Source: Gammaproteobacteria bacterium (GTDB lineage Bacteria; Pseudomonadota; Gammaproteobacteria; Steroidobacterales; PWYM01). From it: a DNA stretch of 64,000 nt. The notes beneath the pieces were generated by a model. The model was not told the DNA's origin. It did no database searches and was given only the letters and a program-made list of their open reading frames with translations. Shown in pieces: positions 15,075-29,857 of this stretch (position 1 is the first letter of the stretch; each line of letters begins with the position of its first letter). Made by a program: the position numbers and the translations under genes. The stretch covers positions 1 through 64,000 of the forward strand of contig PWZL01000067.1 in assembly GCA_003567475.1 (NCBI GenBank). The letters run 5' to 3'.

Positions 15075-17165
15075 ATGGAGTCCAATGTCTTGAACAGCCA
15101 GGTCGGCGTCCCGGTCATCGTCCTGACACGCAAGCAGGATCACGTCGAAGCCATCAATCGCGGTCTGCGCGACGCTCGCCACCCCGCGCACTGCAGCTGG
15201 CTGTCCGATCCCAGTGAACTGGCGGATGCCCTGGTGCAGATCGCCCCGGAACTGATGCTGTATTTCGCGGATGAGTTCCCTGGAGGCGTCGCGGCGATCG
15301 CGACGACCCGAGACCACGCCACACCAGGGCTGCCGCTGGTGTGCGTCCGCCGCAGCGTCGACGAATCGGCCATTGCCCGCGACCTCGCTGCCGGCGCGCA
15401 GGACACCCTTTCACTGGCCCACACCCGGCGGCTGCAGGCCGTGGCCTCCCGTGAGTTGCGGGCCTATCGCCTCGAGCGGGCACTGAACACGACCCAGCGC
15501 TCAGCGAGCCGCTACCGCCAGCAGCTCCAGGCGTTCATGGAGGGTTCGGCGGACGCCATTGCCACCGTGCAGGAAGGCATCGTCGTGGAGGTCAATCCCG
15601 CGTGGCTGGAACTCTTCGGCTATGCCGAAGAGGAGGCCCTGGTCGGTCAACCGCTCATGGACCTGTTCGAGTCCGGCAGCCACACCGCACTCAAGGGTGC
15701 GCTGGTCGCAGCCATGCAGGGCAAATGGGAGGACCAGTCTTTACGCGCCCAGGCGGCGACGTCGGACGGCTCCGCGCTCACGCTGGAGCTGCAACTCGAA
15801 GCCGCGAGTTTCGATGGTGACGCCGCCGTACAGCTGACCGTCCCGAGGGCACACCGCGACGACGACAACCCGGGCACCCTGGTCGCCGAGATGGTGCAGA
15901 AAGATGCCGTGACCGGTCTGTACCACCGACGAGCGTTGCTGGAGGCCATGGGCACGCGTCTGGAACAGCCGAGTCGCGGCGGGGTCCGCGTGCTGGTCTG
16001 GCTGCGGCCGGACAAGCTGCTCGAGCTGCGTATCGGCCTCGGTCCGCTGGCCACCGAGACCCTGCTCGACCGCCTGGCCTGTCTGCTCGCCGCCGCGCTG
16101 GGGCCGTCCGACCTGGCCGGGCGAATCACCGGTAACGGCCTGGCCGTACTGCTGGAGCGAGGCACACTGCGAGACTGTCAGGCCTGGACGGAAAACCTGC
16201 TGCAAAGCATTGCGGGCGAAGTCTTCGAAATCGGCGAACAGTCGTTATCGCTGACCTGCAGCGCCGGCCTGGCCCTGGCCGGCCGCCAGACCGCCACCCT
16301 CGACAGCCTGCTCGACGTGGCCGAGCGCTGCTGCCGGGAAGCGCGCGCGCGGGGCAACTGCCTGCGTGTCCCTGAGGCGGTGGCCGACGACACCCGAGCC
16401 ATGGAACAGGATCAGCTGTGGGTGCGGCGGATCAAGGCCGCCTTGCTGGAAAACCGCTTCCGGCTGGTTCATCAGCCGATCGTCAGCCTCCAGGACAGTC
16501 ACCAGGGGCTTTACGATCTGCTGGTGCGGATGGTGGACGAAGCCGGCGAGGAGATCCTGCCCGGTGAGTTCCTGCCCGCCGCGCAACGGCACAAGCTGAT
16601 GAAGAACATCGACCGTTGGGTGATCGGCGCTGCGGTCACCTTCGCCTTGAGTCGTAAACCTTCGCGGATCTTCATCAGGCTTTCCGCCGACAGTGTCCTC
16701 GACGACACTCTGCCGAAATGGCTGCAACACCAGTTGCGGACCGCAGGTGCGCCCCCGCAGCGTCTCTGTTTCCAGCTCACCGAAGAGCTCTGCCACCAAT
16801 ATCTCAAGCAGGCCAAGCGAGTCGCCGAGGCGCTGCGCAAGATCGGCTGTCAGTTTGCCGTCGATCATTTCGGGATTGGCCGCGATCCGCTTCAGGTGCT
16901 CCACCACCTGCCCATGCATTACGTCAAGATCGACGGCTCGCTGATGCAGGGGCTGGCCGGGAACGATGCCCTGCAGCAACAGGTCCGCACCCTGGTCGCC
17001 GCGGCCCGTGACCACAAGGTCCTGACCATCGCCGAGCGGGTCGAGGATGCCAACACCATGGCCGTGCTGTTCCAGATCGGTGTCAGCTACATGCAGGGCC
17101 ATTATGTCCAGGAACCGGAAGTCGTCCTCGAGGACGATACCAGCATGCTCCGTACCATCGCCTGA
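15075..17165 (+). CDS. FimX-like protein: receiver-like, PAS, degenerate GGDEF and degenerate EAL domains
   Basis: A 696-residue multidomain protein with the same order and size as FimX, the c-di-GMP receptor that controls type IV pilus assembly and twitching. Segments: receiver-like fold (about 1-125), PAS (about 150-265), GGDEF-like (about 275-440), EAL-like (about 455-690). The GGDEF signature is replaced by TGNGLAVLL, and no active-site half remains. In the EAL domain the EAL motif is YDLLVR, the asparagine strand reads IRLSADS, and the usual DDFG is DHFGIG. FQLTEE, VKIDGS and AERVED are retained. Both domains are therefore probably catalytically dead, with the EAL a likely ligand sensor. 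It begins 115 bases after epmB and is followed closely by a FimV-like gene. Confidence 0.85.
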   Translation: MESNVLNSQVGVPVIVLTRKQDHVEAINRGLRDARHPAHCSWLSDPSELADALVQIAPELMLYFADEFPGGVAAIATTRDHATPGLPLVCVRRSVDESAIARDLAAGAQDTLSLAHTRRLQAVASRELRAYRLERALNTTQRSASRYRQQLQAFMEGSADAIATVQEGIVVEVNPAWLELFGYAEEEALVGQPLMDLFESGSHTALKGALVAAMQGKWEDQSLRAQAATSDGSALTLELQLEAASFDGDAAVQLTVPRAHRDDDNPGTLVAEMVQKDAVTGLYHRRALLEAMGTRLEQPSRGGVRVLVWLRPDKLLELRIGLGPLATETLLDRLACLLAAALGPSDLAGRITGNGLAVLLERGTLRDCQAWTENLLQSIAGEVFEIGEQSLSLTCSAGLALAGRQTATLDSLLDVAERCCREARARGNCLRVPEAVADDTRAMEQDQLWVRRIKAALLENRFRLVHQPIVSLQDSHQGLYDLLVRMVDEAGEEILPGEFLPAAQRHKLMKNIDRWVIGAAVTFALSRKPSRIFIRLSADSVLDDTLPKWLQHQLRTAGAPPQRLCFQLTEELCHQYLKQAKRVAEALRKIGCQFAVDHFGIGRDPLQVLHHLPMHYVKIDGSLMQGLAGNDALQQQVRTLVAAARDHKVLTIAERVEDANTMAVLFQIGVSYMQGHYVQEPEVVLEDDTSMLRTIA

Positions 17166-17201
17166 GCTGGCAGGCGCAGCAAGCGACAGGAAGATCGTGT
17201 G

Positions 17202-19079
17202 ATGCAGTTCTCAGTTCAAGCCTTTGACCCGGCAGGCCGCCCGGAAACCCGGAACGACGCACGGCCGGAGCAGAGCACCGGGCTTATGCTGACGGCCATG
17301 ACACGACGCCGCTCCAGAGCCGCCCCGCTGGCCGCCGCGATTGCCGCCCTGCTCGCGAGTGGCAGTGCGCTGGCCCTGTCGCTCGGCCCCATTGAAGTCG
17401 GTTCTGCACTCGGTGAGCCGCTGCGCGCGGAGCTTGCCCTCGGCATTGCCCCCGGCGAACGCATCGTGCCGGAGTGCTTCAGGCTGAGCACGGATGCCTC
17501 TGCCGGCGCGCGTGCCGGCCTGCCCTATGAAGCCAGCCTGCGGATCCTGGGGAGTGGCCCCGCGCAGCGGCTGGCCATCACCGGTCGAACCCCCTTGCGC
17601 GAACCGCTCGTGGATCTGGTGGTTGCGGTGGAGTGCGCCGGCGCACCACGGCTACAGCGCGGCTACACGCTCCTGCTCTCACCAGGCGGGCTGGCGGCAC
17701 CGGCACGACCAGCCGCAGCCGCGACAGCGGTCACGCCGCCGCAGACCGCGGCCGACTCGACGGCCGCCGCCACGCGCAGCGGCGCGGCGCCGAGGCCAGC
17801 CCGCACGCCGGCACGCCCGCCAACCCGGCGCCCGGACACGCCGCTCGCGGCCGGCGAGCCGTATCGTGTCCGCCCCGGCGATACACTCTCGACCATCGCC
17901 GAGCGGGTCCGTGACCGTGACCTCTCGATCTGGGCCCAAGCGGAGGCGATCTTCAGCGCGAACCCGGATGCCTTCATCAATGGCGACCCGAATCGCTTGC
18001 GCGCTGGCAGTCTGCTGGTGATTCCGCCGGCCGCCGGCAGCGGCGCGACTCCCGCGACGACGATGTCGTCACGTCCTCGCGAGACGCTCACGGCAGTGGT
18101 ACCCCGCATTGGCGAGCGCCCCGAGATCATCACGACGGCAGGGGTTACCAGCACAAGCCCCGTCGCAGCCATCGCTGGCGCTGCGACGACAGCGCCCCGT
18201 CAACCCGCTCAGCCGATGGGACCGCCGCGACCGGAGCGCCTGGTCGCGACGACTCCGCGACCGGCCACGCCGCCCCCGGCAGCGGCCGCGATGACACCCT
18301 CGGCTGAGACCACAGGTCGATTGCGTGGCTGGCTGGCCGGGCTGCTCGTCGGTCTGGGCTTCATCAGCCTGGGCGCCCTGTTGGGCTGGACGGCATTGCG
18401 GCGTCGCCCGGTCGATGGTGCCCATGCGGATCTCGAGACCACGATTCAGGCAGGCCGTCCCCCGCAGGGCGTCCGGCTGACCCCACCGCCCTCGTTCGAT
18501 CGCGGCCTGCAGCCGACGGGCAGTTACACCGTCGAGATCACCCCGCCGGACGACAACCTGGCGGCGGCCCGGGCCGGCGGCCTGGTCGATGACACCCCCA
18601 CCGACGAGGTCACCGTTCTCGGCGAAGCCACAGGCACGGCCGACGGCGACGACGCCCTGGATGACCTGCTGTCGGCCGCCGCGCCCGACGACACGGACCG
18701 CGCAGCGGTGCAAGGCGCTGACCCGCGGTCCGCACCCGTCAACCCGCGGGCGGGTGACACGACGATCGAGCACCGCTTCGAAGGCTTCAGCGACACCCAG
18801 GCCCTCGACGTGCAGATGGCCGAAGCCATGGCCATGCTCGAACAGGATTACACCAGCCGCTTCGAGGCCGCCGTCTCCCTCGATGACTCCGGTGAGCAGG
18901 ATGCCACCGATACCCTGCACGCGCTGCCCGGCGACGTGACCCAGAGCCTCGAGGACCTGCGTCGTCAAGCGGGCGAGGACGCGGCTGCCGACGCAGGTCT
19001 CGCAGACGACGAGCCCGCCGACACCCAGGAGCGCACAGCGCTGATGGAAACGCCCCCGGGCCGCGTCGGCACCGGTTGA
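17202..19079 (+). CDS. Short FimV-like LysM membrane protein
   Basis: A 625-residue protein that resembles only the front half of FimV. It contains a signal sequence, then LSLGPIEVGSALGEPLRAEL (compare the opening of the mature FimV), a periplasmic LysM (about 219-275, YRVRPGDTLSTIAERV), Pro/Ala/Thr-rich linkers, one membrane helix (about 374-397) and an acidic cytoplasmic tail. The C-terminal FimV TPR domain is absent. The best ribosome site (AGGAAG, eight bases before ATG 17202) gives 32 residues ahead of the signal sequence. ATG 17298 would give a classic signal peptide start, MTRRRSRAAPL. It starts 36 bases after the FimX-like gene and should be cotranscribed with it. The role is not known; a partner of the FimX-like protein is my inference. 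Confidence 0.8.
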   Translation: MQFSVQAFDPAGRPETRNDARPEQSTGLMLTAMTRRRSRAAPLAAAIAALLASGSALALSLGPIEVGSALGEPLRAELALGIAPGERIVPECFRLSTDASAGARAGLPYEASLRILGSGPAQRLAITGRTPLREPLVDLVVAVECAGAPRLQRGYTLLLSPGGLAAPARPAAAATAVTPPQTAADSTAAATRSGAAPRPARTPARPPTRRPDTPLAAGEPYRVRPGDTLSTIAERVRDRDLSIWAQAEAIFSANPDAFINGDPNRLRAGSLLVIPPAAGSGATPATTMSSRPRETLTAVVPRIGERPEIITTAGVTSTSPVAAIAGAATTAPRQPAQPMGPPRPERLVATTPRPATPPPAAAAMTPSAETTGRLRGWLAGLLVGLGFISLGALLGWTALRRRPVDGAHADLETTIQAGRPPQGVRLTPPPSFDRGLQPTGSYTVEITPPDDNLAAARAGGLVDDTPTDEVTVLGEATGTADGDDALDDLLSAAAPDDTDRAAVQGADPRSAPVNPRAGDTTIEHRFEGFSDTQALDVQMAEAMAMLEQDYTSRFEAAVSLDDSGEQDATDTLHALPGDVTQSLEDLRRQAGEDAAADAGLADDEPADTQERTALMETPPGRVGTG

Positions 19080-19086
19080 GCCGGGG

Positions 19087-21345
19087 TCAGCTGCCGGTGC
19101 GCTCGACCAGCAACCGCTCCACACGGCGCCAGCCGCGCGGCAGCAGGCTGCCGCGGCGCCCGCGACTGCCAGCGTAAGCTTCGAGATCCCGGTAGCGCAG
19201 CGTCATCCGCCGCTGGCCGCTGTATACCGCCAGCACCTCGTCCGGCGCCACCGCCGCCACCGCCACCATCCGCTCCTCGCCATCGCGGTGCTTCGCCGCG
19301 TTGATCGCCTGGATCCTGTTGCCCTTCCCGCGAGCCAGCTGCGGCAGATCTGCGACCGGGAACACCAGCATCTGGCCCCCCTCACTCACCGCGGCGAGCA
19401 GGGCAGCATCCGGCTGCACCACCGCCGAAGGAATGAGCACAGCCGCGCCACGCGGCACTGTCAACACGGCCTTGCCGGCCTTGTTGCGCGAGTGCAGATC
19501 GCCCAGCCGGGCAATGAACCCGAACCCGGCATCGGTGGCCAGCAGCCAGAGACTGTCATCATCGCCCGTCATCACGCCACGAAAGGTCGCGCCATCGGGC
19601 GGGTTGAAGCGTCCGGACAGCGGCTCGCCCTGACCGCGCGCCGAGGGCAGCGTGTGCGCCGGCAGGCTGTAAGCGCGACCGGTGCTGTCCAGGAAAACCG
19701 CCGGCTGGTTGCTGCGCCCGCGACTCGCGGCAAGGAACTCGTCACCACTGCGGTAGTTCAGTGCCGGGGCATCCACCTCGTGCCCGCGCGCAGCGCGTGC
19801 CCAGCCACGGGCCGACAGCACCACCGTCACCGGTTCAGCGGCCACCAGCTGAGTCTCGTCGAGCGCCTGTGCCGCGGCGCGCTCCACCAGTCGCGTCCGG
19901 CGTGCATCGCCATGTTTTGCCGCGTCCTCGAGGATCTCGTCGCGGATGAGACGGCGCAGCCGCGTGCGGCTGCCAAGCGTTTTCTCCAACTGGGCGCGCT
20001 CGGCCTCGAGTTCGGACTGTTCGCCACGGATCTTCATCTCTTCGAGCTTGGCCAGATGACGCAGTTTCAGCTCGAGAATCGCTTCGGCCTGTATATCGGA
20101 CAGTCCGAAGCGCGCCATCAGCACGGGTTTCGGCTCATCCTCGGCGCGGATGATGGCAATGACCTCGTCGATGTTGAGATAGGCCACCAGCAGGCCATCG
20201 AGAATGTGCAGACGCTCACGCACCTTGCCAAGGCGATGTTCGAGCCGGCGCACCACGGTATCGGTACGAAACTGCAGCCACTCGGCGAGCAGGCGCTTGA
20301 GATCCAGCACGCCGGGGCGGCCATCCATGCCGATGACGTTCATGTTCACCCGCACCGTGCGCTCGAGATCGGTCGTGGCGAACAGGTGATTCATCAGCTG
20401 CGCCACATCGACGCGGCTGGACCGCGGGCTGATGACCAGACGGGTCGGATTCTCGTGATCGGATTCATCCCGGAGATCCTCGACCAGTGGCAGCTTCTTG
20501 GCGCGCATCTGCCCGGCGATCTGCTCGAGCACACGGCTGCCCGAGACCTGCCACGGCAGTTCGGTGACGATGATGTCACTGCCCTCAAGCTCATAACGCG
20601 CGCGCACACGCAGGGTGCCGCCGCCCGTCTGATAGATCCTGAGCAGTTCATCGCGCGGCGAGATGACCTCGCCACCGGTCGGGAAATCCGGGCCCTGGAT
20701 ATGCTCGCAGAGCGCGGCGACGCTGGCCTTCGGATCCTCCAGCAGGTGCACCAGTGCAGCCGTCACCTCACGCAGGTTATGCGGGGGGATATCGGTGGAC
20801 ATGCCCACCGCAATCCCGCTGGTCCCATTCAGGAGCAGGTTCGGCAGCCTCGCCGGCAGCCGCACGGGCTCAGTCAGCGTGCCATCAAAATTCGTGGTCC
20901 AGTCGACCGTCCCCTGGCCGAGCTCGGTCAGCAGCAGCGCGGCATAGGGCGTGAGCTTGGCCTCGGTGTAGCGCATGGCCGCGAAGCTTTTCGGGTCATC
21001 GGCACTGCCCCAGTTGCCCTGGCCGTGGACGATGGGGTAGCGGTAGGCGAAGGGCTGGGCCATGTGCACCATGGCCTCATAACAGGCGGCATCGCCGTGC
21101 GGGTGATACTTGCCGATGACGTCACCGACCGTACGCGCCGACTTCTTGGGCTTGGCAGTGGCCGAGAGCCCCAGCTCGCGCATGGCGAAGACGATCCGTC
21201 GCTGCACCGGCTTGAGGCCGTCGCCGACGAACGGCAACGCCCGGTCGAGGATGACGTACATCGAGTAGTCGAGGTAGGCCTTCTCGGTGAAGCTCCGCAG
21301 CGGCTGGCGCTCCACGCCCTCGAAATTGAGTTCCGGTTCGTCCAC
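19087..21345 (-). CDS. parC: DNA topoisomerase IV subunit A
   Basis: Cleavage-and-religation subunit of topoisomerase IV, which decatenates daughter chromosomes. The 752-residue protein, the same length as E. coli ParC, has the catalytic tyrosine in [11 protein letters not shown] and the ParC-type sequence [13 protein letters not shown]. The start is GTG at 21345, one base after the parE stop codon; no upstream ATG gives a ParC-like N-terminus. The quinolone-determining segment reads [12 protein letters not shown], with Ala at residue 86 where E. coli has Ser80. It faces the FimV-like gene convergently with seven bases between stop codons. Confidence 0.97.
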
Positions 21346-21346
21346 G

Positions 21347-23239
21347 TCAGACCTCGATCTCGGCCAGGTTGCCCTTGGCCTGCAGCCAATCGCGGCGGTC
21401 GGCCGCGCGTTTCTTGGCAAGCAGCATGTCCAGCAGCTGCTCGGTGTCGTCACTCGCCGTCACCGTCAGCTGCACCAGCCGACGGGTATCCGCGGCCATG
21501 GTGGTCTCGCGCAACTGGGACGGACTCATCTCTCCGAGGCCCTTGAACCGGGTGACACTGACCTGCCCCCGGCGCTTTTCGGCGGCAATGCGGTCGAGCA
21601 GGATGTCGCGCTCGGCGAGGTCCAGCGCGTAGAACACCTCCTTGCCCACATCGATACGAAACAGCGGCGGCATCGCCATATAGACATGGCCGGCCGCCAC
21701 CAGCGGCCGATAGTGGCGCACGAAGAGGGCACAGAGCAGCGTGGCGATATGCAGGCCATCGGAATCGGCATCGGCGAGCACGCAGACCTTGTGGTAGCGC
21801 AGCCGCGAGAGATCCGGCGAGGCCGGATCGACACCCAGCGCAACGGAAATATTGTGCACCTCCTGGGAGGCAAGGATGTCTCCGGACTCCACCTCCCAGG
21901 TGTTGAGGATCTTGCCACGCAACGGCATCACGGCCTGGGTCTCACGGTCGCGTGCCTGCTTGGCCGAGCCGCCGGCCGAGTCGCCCTCCACCAGGAAGAG
22001 CTCGGAGCGCGCTGGATCCTGCGAGGTGCAGTCGGCCAGCTTGCCCGGCAGCGCCGGACCGCTGACCACGCGCTTGCGCACGACCTGGCGGGCCGCTTTC
22101 AGCCGGCGCTGGGCATTGCCGATGGCGAGCTCCGCAATCTGCTCACCGGCCTCGGGATGCTGGTTCAGCCACAAGGCGAAGTGGTCTTTCACCACCCCGG
22201 AGACAAACCCTGCCGCCTCGCGCGAGGACAGGCGCTCCTTGGTCTGGCCGGAGAACTGCGGCTCGGCGAGCTTGACGGAGAGCACGTAGCTGACCTGCTC
22301 CCAGACATCCTCCGGCGCCAGGCGCAATCCGCGCGGCAGCAGGTTGCGGAACTCGCAGAACTCGCGCAGCGCCTCGGTGAGGCCCGAGCGCAGACCGTTC
22401 ACGTGGGTACCTCCCTGCGCGGTGGGAATCAGGTTCACATAGCTCTCGGCGACCACGCCCCCCTCGGCGACACGCCAGGCGACCGCCCAGTCCACCGCCT
22501 CACGCGCAGCGGCCAGCGTGCCGGAGAGCGGCGACTGGGGCACCCGCTCGACGTCGCCCATGGCCTCGTGCAGATATTCCTCCAGCCCCCCCTCATAACA
22601 CCAGTCGTGCGTCTCACCGCTCTTCTCGACGGTGAAACGTACGCGCAGGCCGGGGCAGAGCACCGCCTTGGCACGCAGCACATGCGTGAGACGGCCGACC
22701 GAGAACTGCGCGGAATCGAAGTATTTCGGATCGGGCCAGAACCGCAGTGTGGTCCCGGTATTGGCGCGGCCTACCTTGCCGACCGGTTCGAGGTCTCCGG
22801 CCTTGTAGCCGTCACGGAAACTCATGTTGTATTCAACCCCGCCGCGACGGATCCAGACCTCCAGCGCACTGGACAGGGCGTTGACCACCGACACCCCGAC
22901 GCCGTGGAGGCCGCCCGAGAACTGGTAGTTGCTGCCGGAGAACTTGCCGCCGGCGTGCAGGCGGGTGAGGATCAGCTCAACCCCGGGGATGCCCTGCTCC
23001 GGATGAATGTCCACCGGCATGCCCCGGCCATCGTCGGCCACTTCCAGCGAGCCGTCGCGATGCAGGGTGACACTGATGCTGCGGGCGTGGCCGGCGAGGG
23101 CCTCGTCGACGCTGTTGTCGATGACTTCGTGCGCCAGGTGGTTCGGACGGCTGGTGTCCGTGTACATGCCGGGACGACGGCGCACGGGATCGAGGCCGCT
23201 CAGGACCTCGATATCGGAGGCGTTGTAAGTGCTGCTCAT
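21347..23239 (-). CDS. parE: DNA topoisomerase IV subunit B
   Basis: ATPase subunit of topoisomerase IV. At 630 residues it equals E. coli ParE. The GHKL ATPase motifs are [23 protein letters not shown] and [15 protein letters not shown]; the TOPRIM motifs are [19 protein letters not shown] and [16 protein letters not shown]. It is followed without a real gap by parC. The upstream gap to the M14 peptidase gene is 90 bases on the same strand, so read-through from the rubrerythrin operon is possible, although an own promoter is more likely. Confidence 0.97.
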
Positions 23240-25935: not shown

Positions 25936-26523
25936 TCAACTCACGAAATCGGCGCGCAGCGCCTCGGCCGTCGCGGCATCGACAGGGTCGACGGCGACGC
26001 GGTAGTGGTCATGATCGATGCCCGCCGACAGCGCGGCACCGCCACGGAAGGCTGCGACCATCTCCGGCGTGAACTCGAAGCGTGCGAAATGCACTGACGA
26101 GGTTTTCTCTTCGGTGGTGCGGTCGAGATCTTCGTTGCAGATGGGCGTTACGCGATCGAAGCCCTCGATCTGCAGCCAGACCCTGTGCTCGATGTCGATG
26201 AGCTCGGCCAGCCGTCGCCGACGCTCCTCGATATCAGGGAATTCCAGCATGAACGTCGCCTTGAGATTGCTGCCGTCGGGGATCAGCGGGTTGTAGGCGA
26301 GCAGTTCGTCTTCAATCCCCTCCGGCTCGAAGATCCGCTCGATCCGCAGCATCTCCTGGACCTGGTATTGCAGGGTCAGGCGGTCTTCGAAATACAGCGT
26401 GGCGTTGGCACCGAGATGGATCTTGCGGTGCTGTTTGTGGGCCAACACCTTCGCCCGGAACTCGGGCCGGATCCGGGCGTATTCCTCGAGGCTGTAGAGA
26501 TCCTGGTGTGTCAGCTTGTCCAT
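25936..26523 (-). CDS. DUF3501 family protein
   Basis: A 195-residue soluble protein of the conserved uncharacterised DUF3501 family, starting MDKLTHQDLYSLEEYARIRP. It has KQHRKIHLGANATLYFEDRLT and YNPLIPDGSNLKATFMLE, a charged middle (DIEERRRRLAEL) and a FARFEFTPEMVAAFRGG segment. There is no signal peptide, membrane helix or cysteine cluster. It always seems to travel with an Fe-S protein and rubrerythrin, as here: nine bases after the Fe-S gene and five before the peptidase gene. A role in peroxide or iron-sulfur metabolism is inferred from context only. Confidence 0.88.
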   Translation of the reverse strand: MDKLTHQDLYSLEEYARIRPEFRAKVLAHKQHRKIHLGANATLYFEDRLTLQYQVQEMLRIERIFEPEGIEDELLAYNPLIPDGSNLKATFMLEFPDIEERRRRLAELIDIEHRVWLQIEGFDRVTPICNEDLDRTTEEKTSSVHFARFEFTPEMVAAFRGGAALSAGIDHDHYRVAVDPVDAATAEALRADFVS

Positions 26524-26532
26524 GATGGCTCC

Positions 26533-27879
26533 TCAGATGCCGTAGGCGCGCCGCAGCAGGCTGATCGGATGACTGGCGGTGACGCCCTCGGCGCCGCTGG
26601 CGATCTGCTCGGCGGCCATCGGACAGTCACTGGCGAAATGATCGGCCTTGGCGTTGCCGACCCGGCGCACCACGGGCTGCGCGATCTTGCGCGACACTTC
26701 GTGGAATTCCTTTTTGACCGCATAGGTGCCGTCATGTCCGGAACAGCGCTCGATGGCGTCGACTTCAGTCTCCGGCACGAGTTTCAGCACGTCGCGGGTT
26801 TTCAGGCCGATGTTCTGGACCCGGAGGTGACAGGGCACCTGGTAGGCGATCTTGCCGAGACGCTCGGGGAACTCGGTGTTGAGCTTGCCGGCGCGGTGCC
26901 GGGTCATCAGGTAGTTGAACGGGTCCCACATGGCGGCGGCCACCTTCGCCACCTGCTCATCTTCCGGGAACATCAGCGGCAGTTCCTGCTTGAACATCAG
27001 CACGCACGAGGGTACCGGCGCGACGATGTCCCAACCGTCGTCAACCAGCCGGGCCAGCTCGGGGACGTTGACGTTCTTGGCCTGCTCCACCGCCTCCAGA
27101 TCCCCCAGCTCCAGCTTCGGCATGCCGCAACATTTTTCCGTGGCGGCCAGGCGCACGGGAATCGAGTTGTGCCGGAACACCGCCACCAGATCCTCGACCA
27201 CTTCCGGCAGATTGCGGTTGCCGTAACAGGTCGTGAACACGACAACCCGGCCGCGGGTGACTTCATCGGGCTCGGCGCCATCACCCGTGGCATCGACCAG
27301 CGCGGCCAGGCGCTTGCGCGCGGTCCGGCTGTGATACTCGGGCACCGGGGCATCGGCATGCACGCCGAGTGCGCCCTGCAAAAGCTTGCGCGCGGTGGCA
27401 TTGCGATTGGCGGCATTGACCGCCTGCACCACCACCGGGATTCCAGCCAGGCTGCCCACGGTGTCGGTGGCGGAGAGAATCTTGTCGCGGGTGGACACCT
27501 TGCCGTCCTTGAACTTCTTCACCTTGGCGCGAAGCATGAGGTGGGGAAAGTCGACGTTGAACGGGTGTGGCGGCACATACGGACACTTCGACATGTAGCA
27601 CATGTCGCAGAGATAACAGTGGTCCACGACCTCCCAGTAGGCCTTCTTCGGGACGCTGTCGAGTTCGCCCGTGTCCGACTCGTCCACCGCGTCGAACAGC
27701 GTGGGGAAGGCGTTGCAGAGGTTGAAACAGCGTCGGCAGCCGTGACAGATGTCGAATACGCGCTCAAGTTCGCCGAACAGCGAGGACTCTTCGGTGAACT
27801 CGGGTGACCGCCAGTCCAGGGGGTGGCGCGTCGGGGCGTCGAGGCTGCCCTCGCGCCGGGAGTCGGGAGGCGTGGCCAT
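26533..27879 (-). CDS. GlpC/HdrD-like (Fe-S)-binding protein
   Basis: A 448-residue protein with two ferredoxin-type CxxCxxCxxxC clusters near the N-terminus ([12 protein letters not shown] and [14 protein letters not shown]) and CCG-domain cysteine motifs later: TTCYGNRN with EKCCGMPK, then PCHLRVQN with ERCSGHDG. The second CCG is degenerate (CSG). This is the architecture of electron-transfer subunits such as GlpC and heterodisulfide reductase subunit D. No flavoprotein partner is adjacent, so the electron donor or acceptor is probably rubrerythrin or a diffusible carrier. It lies 87 bases after rubrerythrin and just before DUF3501. Confidence 0.9.
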
Positions 27880-27966
27880 GGGTGTCGGTCCTGGGTAACG
27901 CGAAACAGGGAAGCGGGATGAGCCGGGTCTCGGCCCACCCCGCCGCCAAGGCCTGTGGGCCGGGGA

Positions 27967-28386
27967 TCAGGCGTCGAGCTGATCCAATGCCTTCTGGAAA
28001 CGGTTGGCGTGCGAGCGCTCGGCCTTGGCCAGCGTTTCGAACCAGTCGGCGATCTCGTCGAAACCCTCGTCGCGGGCGGTCTTCGCCATGCCCGGGTACA
28101 TGTCGGTGTACTCGTGGGTCTCGCCGGCAATGGCGGCCTTGAGGTTCTCGGCCGTCGCGCCCATCGGCAGCCCGGTGGCCGGATCGCCGACGCCCTCGAG
28201 GTACTCGAGGTGACCGTGCGCATGGCCAGTCTCGCCCTCGGCGGTCGAGCGGAACACGGCCGCGACGTCGTTGTAGCCCTCGACGTCGGCCTTGGCGGCG
28301 AAATACAGATACCGGCGGTTGGCCTGGGACTCGCCGGAGAATGCCTCCTTGAGGTTCTGCTCGGTCTTGCTGCCCTTCAGTTCCAT
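27967..28386 (-). CDS. Rubrerythrin (diiron domain only)
   Basis: Non-haem diiron peroxidase-type protein of 139 residues. It starts [26 protein letters not shown], with the metal-ligand glutamates in [26 protein letters not shown] and [11 protein letters not shown]. There is no C-terminal rubredoxin domain, so it needs an external electron donor; the Fe-S protein downstream is a candidate. AAGGAG lies seven bases before ATG 28386, which makes that start more likely than the ATG two codons upstream. It is the first gene of a four-gene run and has a well-formed promoter. Confidence 0.93.
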
Positions 28387-28451
28387 GATCATGCTCCTTG
28401 CTGGCTGCGGTTGAGACCGACACACGTCGCTCACGCCGCGCGCCGGCCGGT

Positions 28452-28466
28452 TTAGACTCAGTCTAA
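28452..28466. promoter_or_regulatory. Perfect 7-1-7 palindrome at the rubrerythrin start site (probable operator)
   Basis: TTAGACTCAGTCTAA is a perfect inverted repeat of two 7-base arms around one base. It lies from about +2 to +16 of the promoter described at 28475-28503 (minus strand), where a bound repressor would block transcription. The 7-1-7 geometry is that of Fur/PerR-family boxes, and PerR-type regulators often control rubrerythrin. The regulator itself is not in the window. Confidence 0.65.
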
Positions 28467-28474
28467 GCGTGAGA

Positions 28475-28503
28475 AATCTAGCCCTCGCCTGCGGGCTTGT
28501 CAA
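28475..28503 (-). promoter_or_regulatory. Sigma-70-type promoter of the rubrerythrin operon
   Basis: Reading the minus strand: a perfect -35 hexamer TTGACA (28498-28503), a 17-base spacer and the -10 hexamer TAGATT (28475-28480, four of six consensus bases). The start site is predicted near 28468, giving a leader of about 80 bases before the rubrerythrin ATG. Confidence 0.65.
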
Positions 28504-28564
28504 CTTGACACCCCGGTCCATAGCGCGGCGAGGCAGGACGCCCGGACCGCACCGACCGGGCGCG

Positions 28565-28593
28565 TTGACCACCACGCGGGCGCTGTGTAGTGT
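28565..28593 (+). promoter_or_regulatory. Candidate promoter for xseB-ispA
   Basis: TTGACC (28565-28570), a 17-base spacer and TAGTGT (28588-28593) on the plus strand, about 65 bases before xseB. The -35 is strong and the -10 weak (three of six). It faces away from the rubrerythrin promoter about 60 bases to the left. Confidence 0.4.
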
Positions 28594-28659
28594 CTCGCCG
28601 GGGCGAGGCCGCTGCGCGGCTTCCGCCCGCCCCCGACCGACCCCGCCGGAGCGAACCGC

Positions 28660-28932
28660 ATGTCGCGCAAACGCGTTGCCCCCGAACCCGCCCCAGGTGC
28701 AGAGCCCCCCGCGGCTATCGATTTCGAGCAGTCGCTTGAAGCCCTGGAAGCCCTGGTCGAGCGCCTCGAGGGCGGTGAACTGCCACTGGAACAGGCGCTG
28801 TCGGCGTTCGAAGAAGGGGTGCGACTGACGCGCGAATGCCAGCGTGCCCTGCGCTCGGCGGAGCAGAAGGTCGCGATGCTCACCGGCGAGGGGGAGCATG
28901 CCGAGCCCGAGCCGTTTCAAGCCGCAGACTGA
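28660..28932 (+). CDS. xseB: Exodeoxyribonuclease VII small subunit
   Basis: Small subunit of the single-strand-specific exonuclease VII; several copies bind one XseA, which is encoded elsewhere. The 90-residue protein has the conserved core [26 protein letters not shown] followed by [22 protein letters not shown]. The N-terminus has a Pro/Ala-rich extension. GGAG precedes ATG 28660. The stop codon is one base before the ispA start, the classic xseB-ispA-dxs order. Confidence 0.95.
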
Positions 28933-28933
28933 C

Positions 28934-29857
28934 ATGGCCCGCGACGGGAGCCGCGACCGGATGCCGGACAGCCAGGACCTGCTCGCCGCCACCGCGACGC
29001 TGCGCGCGCGCGTCGAGGCGACACTTGAGGCGGCTCTCGCGCCGGGCAGCCAGCGGCCGGCGCGGCTGCTGGAGGCGATGCGCTACAGCGTGCTGGCGCC
29101 TGGCAAACGGCTTCGGCCCGTCCTCTGTTATCTGGCCGGCCAGGCCCTGGCGGTGCCGCTGGAGCAGCTCGACGCGCCGGCCTGCGCCGTCGAGATGATC
29201 CATGCCTATTCGCTGATTCACGACGACCTGCCGTCGATGGACGACGACGATCTGCGCCGCGGCCGCCCGACCTGCCATCGGGCTTTCGACGAGGCCACGG
29301 CCATTCTTGCCGGGGACTCGCTGCAGGCGCTGGCCTTCGAGCTGCTCGCCACCGAGGTCACCGGCGTCGCCCCGGCCGCCCGGCTGGCACAGCTCAGGCG
29401 ACTCGCGGCCGCCAGCGGGATCGACGGGATGGCCGGCGGCCAGGCGATGGATCTCGAAGCCGAAACCCGGCAACTCTCCCTGACGGCGTTGGAGGGCGTC
29501 CATCGCCACAAGACCGGTGCGTTGATCGAGGCCAGCGTGCTGATGGCCGCGGATCTCGCCGCATCCGACGCGTCTGTCGTCACGGCCCTGGCACGCTATG
29601 CCAGCTGTGTCGGGCTCGCCTTCCAGGTGCGCGACGACATTCTCGACGTGGAAGGTGACGAAGCCGCCACGGGCAAGCGCGGCGGCGCGGATGCGCGACT
29701 GAACAAATCCACCTATCCAGCCCTGCTCGGCCTGGAAGGTGCCAAGCGCCAGGCCGAGCGCCTGCTTGAAGACGCACAGGCCGCGCTCGAGCCGCTGGGG
29801 GAGGCCGGCGCGCCGCTGCGAGCGCTGGCGCGGTTCGTGGTCGAGCGGCGCCACTGA
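28934..29857 (+). CDS. ispA: (2E,6E)-farnesyl diphosphate synthase
   Basis: Condenses isopentenyl diphosphate onto dimethylallyl and geranyl diphosphate. The 307-residue all-helical prenyltransferase has the first aspartate-rich motif in LIHDDLPSMDDDDLRRGRP, the second in FQVRDDILDVEGDE, and GKRLRPVL near the N-terminus. ATG 28934 lies one base after the xseB stop. The frame is open further upstream inside xseB, but that part is not IspA-like. It supplies quinone and undecaprenyl precursors, directly upstream of dxs. Confidence 0.96.
   Translation: MARDGSRDRMPDSQDLLAATATLRARVEATLEAALAPGSQRPARLLEAMRYSVLAPGKRLRPVLCYLAGQALAVPLEQLDAPACAVEMIHAYSLIHDDLPSMDDDDLRRGRPTCHRAFDEATAILAGDSLQALAFELLATEVTGVAPAARLAQLRRLAAASGIDGMAGGQAMDLEAETRQLSLTALEGVHRHKTGALIEASVLMAADLAASDASVVTALARYASCVGLAFQVRDDILDVEGDEAATGKRGGADARLNKSTYPALLGLEGAKRQAERLLEDAQAALEPLGEAGAPLRALARFVVERRH

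Follow-up and report, generated by a model that had tools for sequence, protein, structure and literature searches.

Proteins of the FimV/HubP family, known as FimV from Pseudomonas and as HubP from Vibrio and Shewanella, carry a periplasmic FimV_N domain and a LysM domain, one membrane helix and an acidic cytoplasmic region, and LysM-mediated binding to the cell wall was reported for the FimV of P. putida (PMC12918733). In Shewanella putrefaciens, HubP uses its FimV domain to bind PdeB at the inactive GGDEF domain (PMC9061725). The GGDEF-EAL protein FimX of Xanthomonas citri forms a complex with PilZ and PilB which sits at the PilM-PilN membrane platform, and the abstract of that study names no FimV-type anchor (PMC8389850), while in Acinetobacter baylyi a truncated FimV positions the pili (PMC9596432). 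Here we describe a locus on a stretch of 64,000 nucleotides (hereafter the window; contig PWZL01000067.1 of assembly GCA_003567475.1) from the 3.06 Mb draft genome of a gammaproteobacterium of the order Steroidobacterales. At positions 15075-19079, fimX is followed by a gene for a short FimV paralogue lacking the C-terminal tetratricopeptide repeat (TPR) domain; this paralogue is called sFimV in the following. Judged by the sequence comparisons reported below, sFimV is a real and conserved TPR-less FimV subfamily, linked in this order to fimX and often to a site resembling that of the cyclic AMP (cAMP) receptor protein CRP. Searches of the open-licence PubMed Central literature gave no description of a fimX-linked short FimV, which does not prove that there is none.

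The layout of sFimV corresponds to that of FimV/HubP from the FimV_N domain to the acidic region, but sFimV has no C-terminal TPR domain, possesses two extra periplasmic cysteines and a tail motif that none of 21 FimVs shows, is often preceded by a CRP-like site, lies behind fimX and coexists with a full FimV in the same genome. The pair of HubP and PdeB (PMC9061725) resembles the locus in that a FimV/HubP family protein meets a GGDEF-EAL protein whose GGDEF domain is inactive. It differs in that the binding part there is the FimV domain, which sFimV is missing, and in that the EAL site of FimX is degenerate too. HubP-PdeB can be seen as the closest working precedent, with sFimV doing what would be a similar job via another part. 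With the X. citri system the locus shares FimX as a GGDEF-EAL protein and a genome encoding PilB (PMC8389850); PilB (TIGR02538) scores above cut-off in the window's own genome and gives FimX its type IV pilus context. The truncated FimV of A. baylyi is likewise shortened but keeps the C-terminus without the periplasmic part, so that sFimV is its converse (PMC9596432). The features of the locus are as follows.

15075-17165, forward strand: fimX, cyclic di-GMP (c-di-GMP) receptor-type protein with PAS, degenerate GGDEF and degenerate EAL domains (domain search, alignment to 4j40)
17198-17213, no strand assigned: CRP/Vfr-like palindrome TGTGATGCAGTTCTCA, one mismatch, in the gap between fimX and sfimV
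17199-19079, forward strand: sfimV, TPR-less FimV paralogue, longest open reading frame (ORF); translation may instead begin at ATG 17298 or 17286
17298-17375, forward strand: signal peptide MTRRRSRAAPLAAAIAALLASGSALA, judged by eye and aligned in relatives
17376-17684, forward strand: FimV_N Ig-like periplasmic domain (domain search)
17862-18026, forward strand: LysM / FimV_core domain
18327-18383, forward strand: single transmembrane helix, residues 377-395 (hydropathy 2.0 at residue 377; helix in the AlphaFold model)
18384-19076, forward strand: acidic cytoplasmic tail, predicted to be mostly disordered, without the FimV C-terminal TPR domain
18816-18899, forward strand: tail motif, window form AMLEQDYTSRFEAA, predicted helix
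3183-6485, reverse strand: full-length FimV paralogue, 1100 amino acids, with FimV_N, FimV_core and FimV_Cterm
19087-21453, reverse strand: parC, the convergent neighbour of sfimV in relatives

The 696-residue FimX of the window contains a PAS (150-239), a GGDEF (276-427) and an EAL domain (452-681), and its best solved relative is FimX 4j40 (1.6e-61). The alignment to 4j40 shows YDLLVR at the EAL site, where 4j40 has YEVLLR, and RITGNGL at the GGDEF site. Both sites thus look degenerate and resemble those of known FimX, from which we infer that c-di-GMP would be bound without catalysis. The nearest relatives of this FimX stem from metagenome-assembled genomes of Gammaproteobacteria, e.g., DLM2.Bin61 and CSSed162cmB_305, and the next ones include Steroidobacteraceae. 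A second FimV-like gene behind the fimX-like one, as given in the initial annotation, is indeed present, with the gap from the stop codon to the GTG being 33 bases and not 36, and a full-length FimV lies at the proposed distance of about 11 kb (10.7 kb from start to start).

The sFimV ORF comprises 626 residues. Its FimV_N domain (PF25800, residues 60-162) was found with an E-value of 1.6e-10 and 41.5 bits (cut-off 27) and includes Cys93 and Cys146 of the ORF (codons 17475-17477 and 17634-17636). The LysM match (Pfam, residues 222-276) reached 20.8 bits, marginally below the cut-off of 20.9, and that to FimV_core (TIGR03505, residues 228-278) 41.7 bits (E 7.3e-11), below its cut-off of 43.45; since TIGR03505 matches 18 of 18 sFimV members at E <= 0.01, the LysM/FimV_core domain was counted as present, and it likely binds peptidoglycan. 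Among the folded parts of the protein, FimV_N and LysM show the best conservation, and a comparison of the sFimV profile with solved structures gave LysM matches to Kbp and nothing else. The tail of 230 residues holds 20% Asp and Glu against 7% Lys and Arg. TIGR03504 (FimV_Cterm) matches the full FimV of the window (77 bits, residues 1055-1098) and is missing from all 18 sFimVs scanned, for which reason sFimV is filed as a TPR-less paralogue and not as FimV. The architecture first suggested, that is a C-terminally shortened FimV paralogue with signal, FimV N-domain, LysM, membrane helix and acidic tail, thereby holds, with LysM/FimV_core marginally under the cut-offs and the signal judged by eye. 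By eye, a second, more weakly conserved patch, TxxME...GxVxT, was seen at the very end of several tails of families f1 and f6 (window 19035-19076).

The GTG at 17199 overlaps the CRP-like site, and the 5' ends of the longest sFimV ORFs in the genus of the window are conserved at that site and then diverge up to an aligned ATG ahead of the signal peptide. The GTG start is therefore doubtful, with ATG 17298 (or 17286) being favored, which would give a gap of about 120-132 bases. fimX and sfimV share a reading frame and are separated by a single TGA (15075-19079), as is also the case in L039, L051, L052, L083, and L084.

In a tree of the N-terminal regions (a quick tree of 49 sFimV and 21 FimV sequences, three sFimVs being skipped by the cutting rule), sFimV forms one clade apart from FimV with a Shimodaira-Hasegawa-like approximate likelihood ratio test (SH-aLRT) value of 100. 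All 49 sFimVs have at least two cysteines in this region, compared to none of the 21 FimVs, and two cysteine columns are invariant in an alignment of 18 sFimV rows. Within the cytoplasmic tail, conservation is strongest in a stretch reading LLExDYExELTATQxL (order consensus LLEQDYExELTATQxL). Its core was found in 46 of 52 sFimV tails, where shuffled tails would give 1.6, and its strict form in 34 (0.01 expected), whereas neither was found in the 21 full FimV tails (1.5 expected for the core). As the patterns were partly drawn from the same data, the shuffles somewhat overstate the enrichment; the FimV control is independent of that. The 46 matches include a truncated copy with the match outside the motif's place (L087) and a weak one from family f14 (L041), and of the six misses L046, L086, L098, and L104 show a variant by eye, while L107 and L108 of f14 do not. 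Occurrence of the motif in other proteins was considered and rejected, as a motif profile run against 21 order genomes gave 12 hits at E <= 1.1e-9, all of them sFimV, with the divergent forms of f4, f7, and f16 being missed; in 274 genomes of the class, its only matches were the window, a single order member and a stretch of 12 residues at E 0.005. The motif was helical in two AlphaFold folds (10-residue means of up to 75 and 82, the tail being mostly below 50).

The distribution of the pair was followed in 147 genomes of the order, from which 80 loci (1.44 Mb) were fetched; these were picked from search results, positives more completely than negatives, so that locus counts are not rates. FimX is present in 108 of the 147 genomes, not counting two (G036 and G100) whose weak best matches were taken as other GGDEF-EAL proteins. 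sFimV occurs in 56 of these 108 genomes and in none of the 39 without FimX. In this tally, for which up to eight candidates per genome were scored, matches with a FimV_N score above 100 bits were classed as FimV, partial copies (G042, G043, G062, G110) were scored present, and G019, with its contig ending after fimX, absent. FimX is held by 78 of the 80 fetched loci. Besides the window, there are 46 loci with sFimV less than 400 bases from fimX and on its strand (one via longest-ORF overlap), which is beyond chance, so that the pair is indeed conserved in relatives as the initial annotation had asked; in four loci it lies farther downstream behind intervening genes (L041, L042, L043, L110), in one it adjoins fimX by coordinates while hidden inside a longer ORF (L089), and in three its presence is undecided at contig ends (L053, L106, L111). 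One f5 genome (G082) has sFimV and FimX on separate contigs. The position between fimX and parC was found in seven families. Co-occurrence with type IV pilus genes, the other check proposed, was likewise seen, PilB being above cut-off in 49 of the 56 sFimV genomes. In f6, 20 of 23 genomes have both FimX and sFimV, and the three FimX-less ones (G095, G100, G144) are without sFimV and without PilB above cut-off, with G100 and G144 retaining a FimV-type protein.

In a FimX tree with 84 rows, 80 of which were scored for sFimV presence, and which is subject to a long-branch warning, e.g., for f14 with G083, the early-branching families f14, f7, f4, and f16 have sFimV. One old gain followed by about seven losses is the simplest reading of this pattern and not the sole one. 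The surrounding order accD-truA-fimV-asd-aroC-prmB / sco-psd-epmA / efp / epmB-fimX / parC-parE is kept, in whole or in part, in the 40 loci compared, except L055. Past parC-parE, a cluster of DUF3501, GlpC-like and rubrerythrin genes (window 25936-28992, reverse strand) recurs in many order loci. Family f8 shows no sFimV behind fimX, but a second FimV-like protein of about 810 residues with a strong FimV_N domain on another contig (G008:C35:25620-26441, G022:C28:18376-19407). Six f5 genomes without a FimX match (G088, G094, G115, G123, G131, G139) encode FimV_N proteins in frames of 433-510 residues, which score 68-107 bits, above the sFimV range.

CRP binds the consensus TGTGAN6TCACA. A site with at most one mismatch to it precedes 30 of 52 sFimVs, the window included (0.26 expected), and one with at most two mismatches 38 (4.1 expected). 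The 80 order loci hold 20 perfect sites, all of which lie between FimX and sFimV (19 in f6, one in f15), and 19 one-mismatch sites, eight of them labelled FimX-sFimV, five upstream of fimX and six scattered or unclear. A AAACATAGAATAG-like element follows the site in several f6 members, and for 31 sites there are 17 cases of a TANNNT starting at a distance of 53, 54 or 59 bases from the centre of the site. In a complete f6 genome (G064), nine perfect sites were found (two for the reversed pattern), one of them in the fimX-sfimV gap. CRP itself is above cut-off in the window's own genome. In many members, sFimV probably has its own cAMP-CRP promoter. With 30 of 52 sFimVs having their own CRP-like site, the candidate two-gene module first put forward is too simple if read as an operon, and the genes intervening in f14 and f16 do not support it either. 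Four of the five one-mismatch sites upstream of fimX lie between FimX and efp and one between FimX and epmB; in some members of the order, CRP may thus control fimX as well.

Of the 93 FimX-bearing genomes in other families of the class, the FimX loci of 40 were fetched. None of these 40 loci (parC is on the stretch in 28, and a few stretches end shortly after fimX) has a FimV-like gene beside fimX, and a class-wide fimX-sFimV pair was rejected. A confinement of sFimV to the order was rejected as well: six of 20 short FimV-like ORFs from other orders, chosen by short open frame among the matches listed, score higher as sFimV than as FimV (L283 in G279, L284 in G391, L286 in G160, L288 in G232, L295 in G265, L296 in G206) in an N-region profile test that places all 52 order sFimVs and all 21 FimVs in their own group, most of them being its training set. 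These proteins have 554-741 residues, and five of the six contain two or more cysteines. Two of the genomes (G160, G206) carry FimX elsewhere. The subfamily thus probably predates the order. Specific to the order are then probably the location next to fimX on its downstream side, the motif in the tail and the CRP-like site, and the outside proteins may represent the older form of the subfamily. Regarding the proposal that a FimV-like protein occurring regularly without FimX would speak against the pair, no sFimV was found in the 39 FimX-less genomes of the order, while outside it the objection holds in part, four of the six genomes showing no FimX at E <= 1e-110.

The genes after fimX in other orders include those of a protein with HAMP and class III nucleotide cyclase domains (L163:9730-11289 by Pfam; L140, L146, L153, L158, L166, and L172 by a similar sequence start) and of a TPR lipoprotein; cyclic-nucleotide signalling therefore adjoins fimX in other orders, too. 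PA4961 of strain PAO1 was considered as a short FimV and rejected, as it is described with a PAS/Cache-type domain (PMC8694187) and the genes behind fimX in other orders encode HAMP and class III cyclase proteins.

What can be read from the sequences themselves comprises the layout, the lost TPR domain, the separate clade, the cysteines, the motif, the CRP-like site, the linkage and the within-order co-absence with FimX; a functional link between sFimV and FimX is plausible, yet unproven. Our preferred reading, to which we give somewhat less than an even chance, is that sFimV is a separate FimV/HubP subfamily acting in this order as a cAMP-induced, peptidoglycan-anchored adaptor that works with FimX and the pili. 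A rise in cAMP, for instance upon surface contact, would lead CRP to switch on sfimV, the LysM part would fix the product in the peptidoglycan, the tail motif might dock FimX or a PilB-PilZ-FimX complex, and sFimV would be placed at the cell pole. Confidence in this adaptor was lowered from even odds to its present level because the sFimV-like proteins outside the order stand away from fimX.

Several observations weigh against it. None of the six outside proteins lies near fimX or the rest of the window locus, none has the strict tail motif, their best CRP-like sites show two to five mismatches, and FimX at E <= 1e-110 was not found in four of the six genomes (G279, G391, G232, G265); the subfamily is therefore not tied to FimX generally. 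Within the order, sFimV is absent from 24 of 78 FimX loci and its presence needs eight changes on the FimX tree, from which it follows that FimX often works without sFimV. In f14 (G014) and f16, genes including an opposite-strand M48 peptidase separate fimX and sfimV, and the f14 sFimVs have a core match at best and no clear motif. PilB above the curated cut-off is missing in seven of the 56 sFimV genomes, among them a 98% complete f6 genome with both FimX and sFimV (G089). No CRP-like site at two mismatches precedes 14 of 52 sFimVs, including those of f4, f7, and f16. The site of the window itself deviates from the consensus at one position and lacks an obvious -10 element, and it is weak when taken alone because the window holds three such sites against 0.78 expected (as many in 6 of 100 shuffles). 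Related genomes and species are moreover not independent. Finally, two AlphaFold folds of FimX-sFimV read-through fusions, in which the first 140 residues of FimX were omitted, gave a predicted template modelling score (pTM) of 0.49 and no sign of docking; with the N-terminal domain of FimX left out and no interface score, these folds neither support nor exclude binding. For the role first proposed, a membrane anchor recruiting FimX to the pole through peptidoglycan, this means that the anchor fits the domains found, whereas recruitment is unproven in view of the missing C-terminal FimV domain, the part with which HubP binds PdeB, of the absence of sFimV from about half of the FimX genomes and of the two fusion folds without docking.

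It is possible, if doubtful, that sFimV is instead a periplasmic type IV pilus or envelope factor, e.g., in the seating of the PilQ secretin or in peptidoglycan remodelling, with its adjacency to fimX reflecting gene order only and no contact to FimX. This would agree with FimV_N and LysM being the best-conserved folded parts, with the intervening genes in f14 and f16, with the sFimV-like proteins away from fimX in other orders, and with the fact that the fimV-to-parC neighbourhood is kept with or without sFimV, which makes adjacency alone a weak argument. A purely periplasmic role, however, leaves unexplained why 46 of 52 sFimV cytoplasmic tails have a motif found in none of the 21 full FimVs. 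FimV in Pseudomonas acts on the Pil-Chp / adenylate cyclase pathway, and its C-terminal domain is thought to bind FimL. sFimV could accordingly be a part of cAMP signalling, a CRP target feeding back on this pathway rather than an anchor for FimX. The enrichment of the CRP-like site at sfimV, including one of the nine perfect sites of G064, would suit such a role, but we consider it unlikely, given that linkage and co-absence within the order point to fimX and that the C-terminal FimV domain is missing from sFimV. A decaying or idle FimV duplicate is a highly improbable explanation of sFimV: its absence in scattered lineages and one truncated copy with an internal stop (G110) would fit, whereas the separate clade with its conserved cysteines, the motif that FimV lacks and the conservation of the promoter site speak against it.

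The mechanism by which FimX and PilB are trafficked to the pole has been called poorly understood (PMC12533971). A candidate partner anchored in membrane and wall and encoded beside fimX, with a short conserved motif and a cAMP-type promoter site, offers a small test of this question, and sFimV may link cAMP and c-di-GMP control of pili. Beyond this, the subfamily shows that FimV-type proteins can persist over long periods without the family-defining TPR domain.

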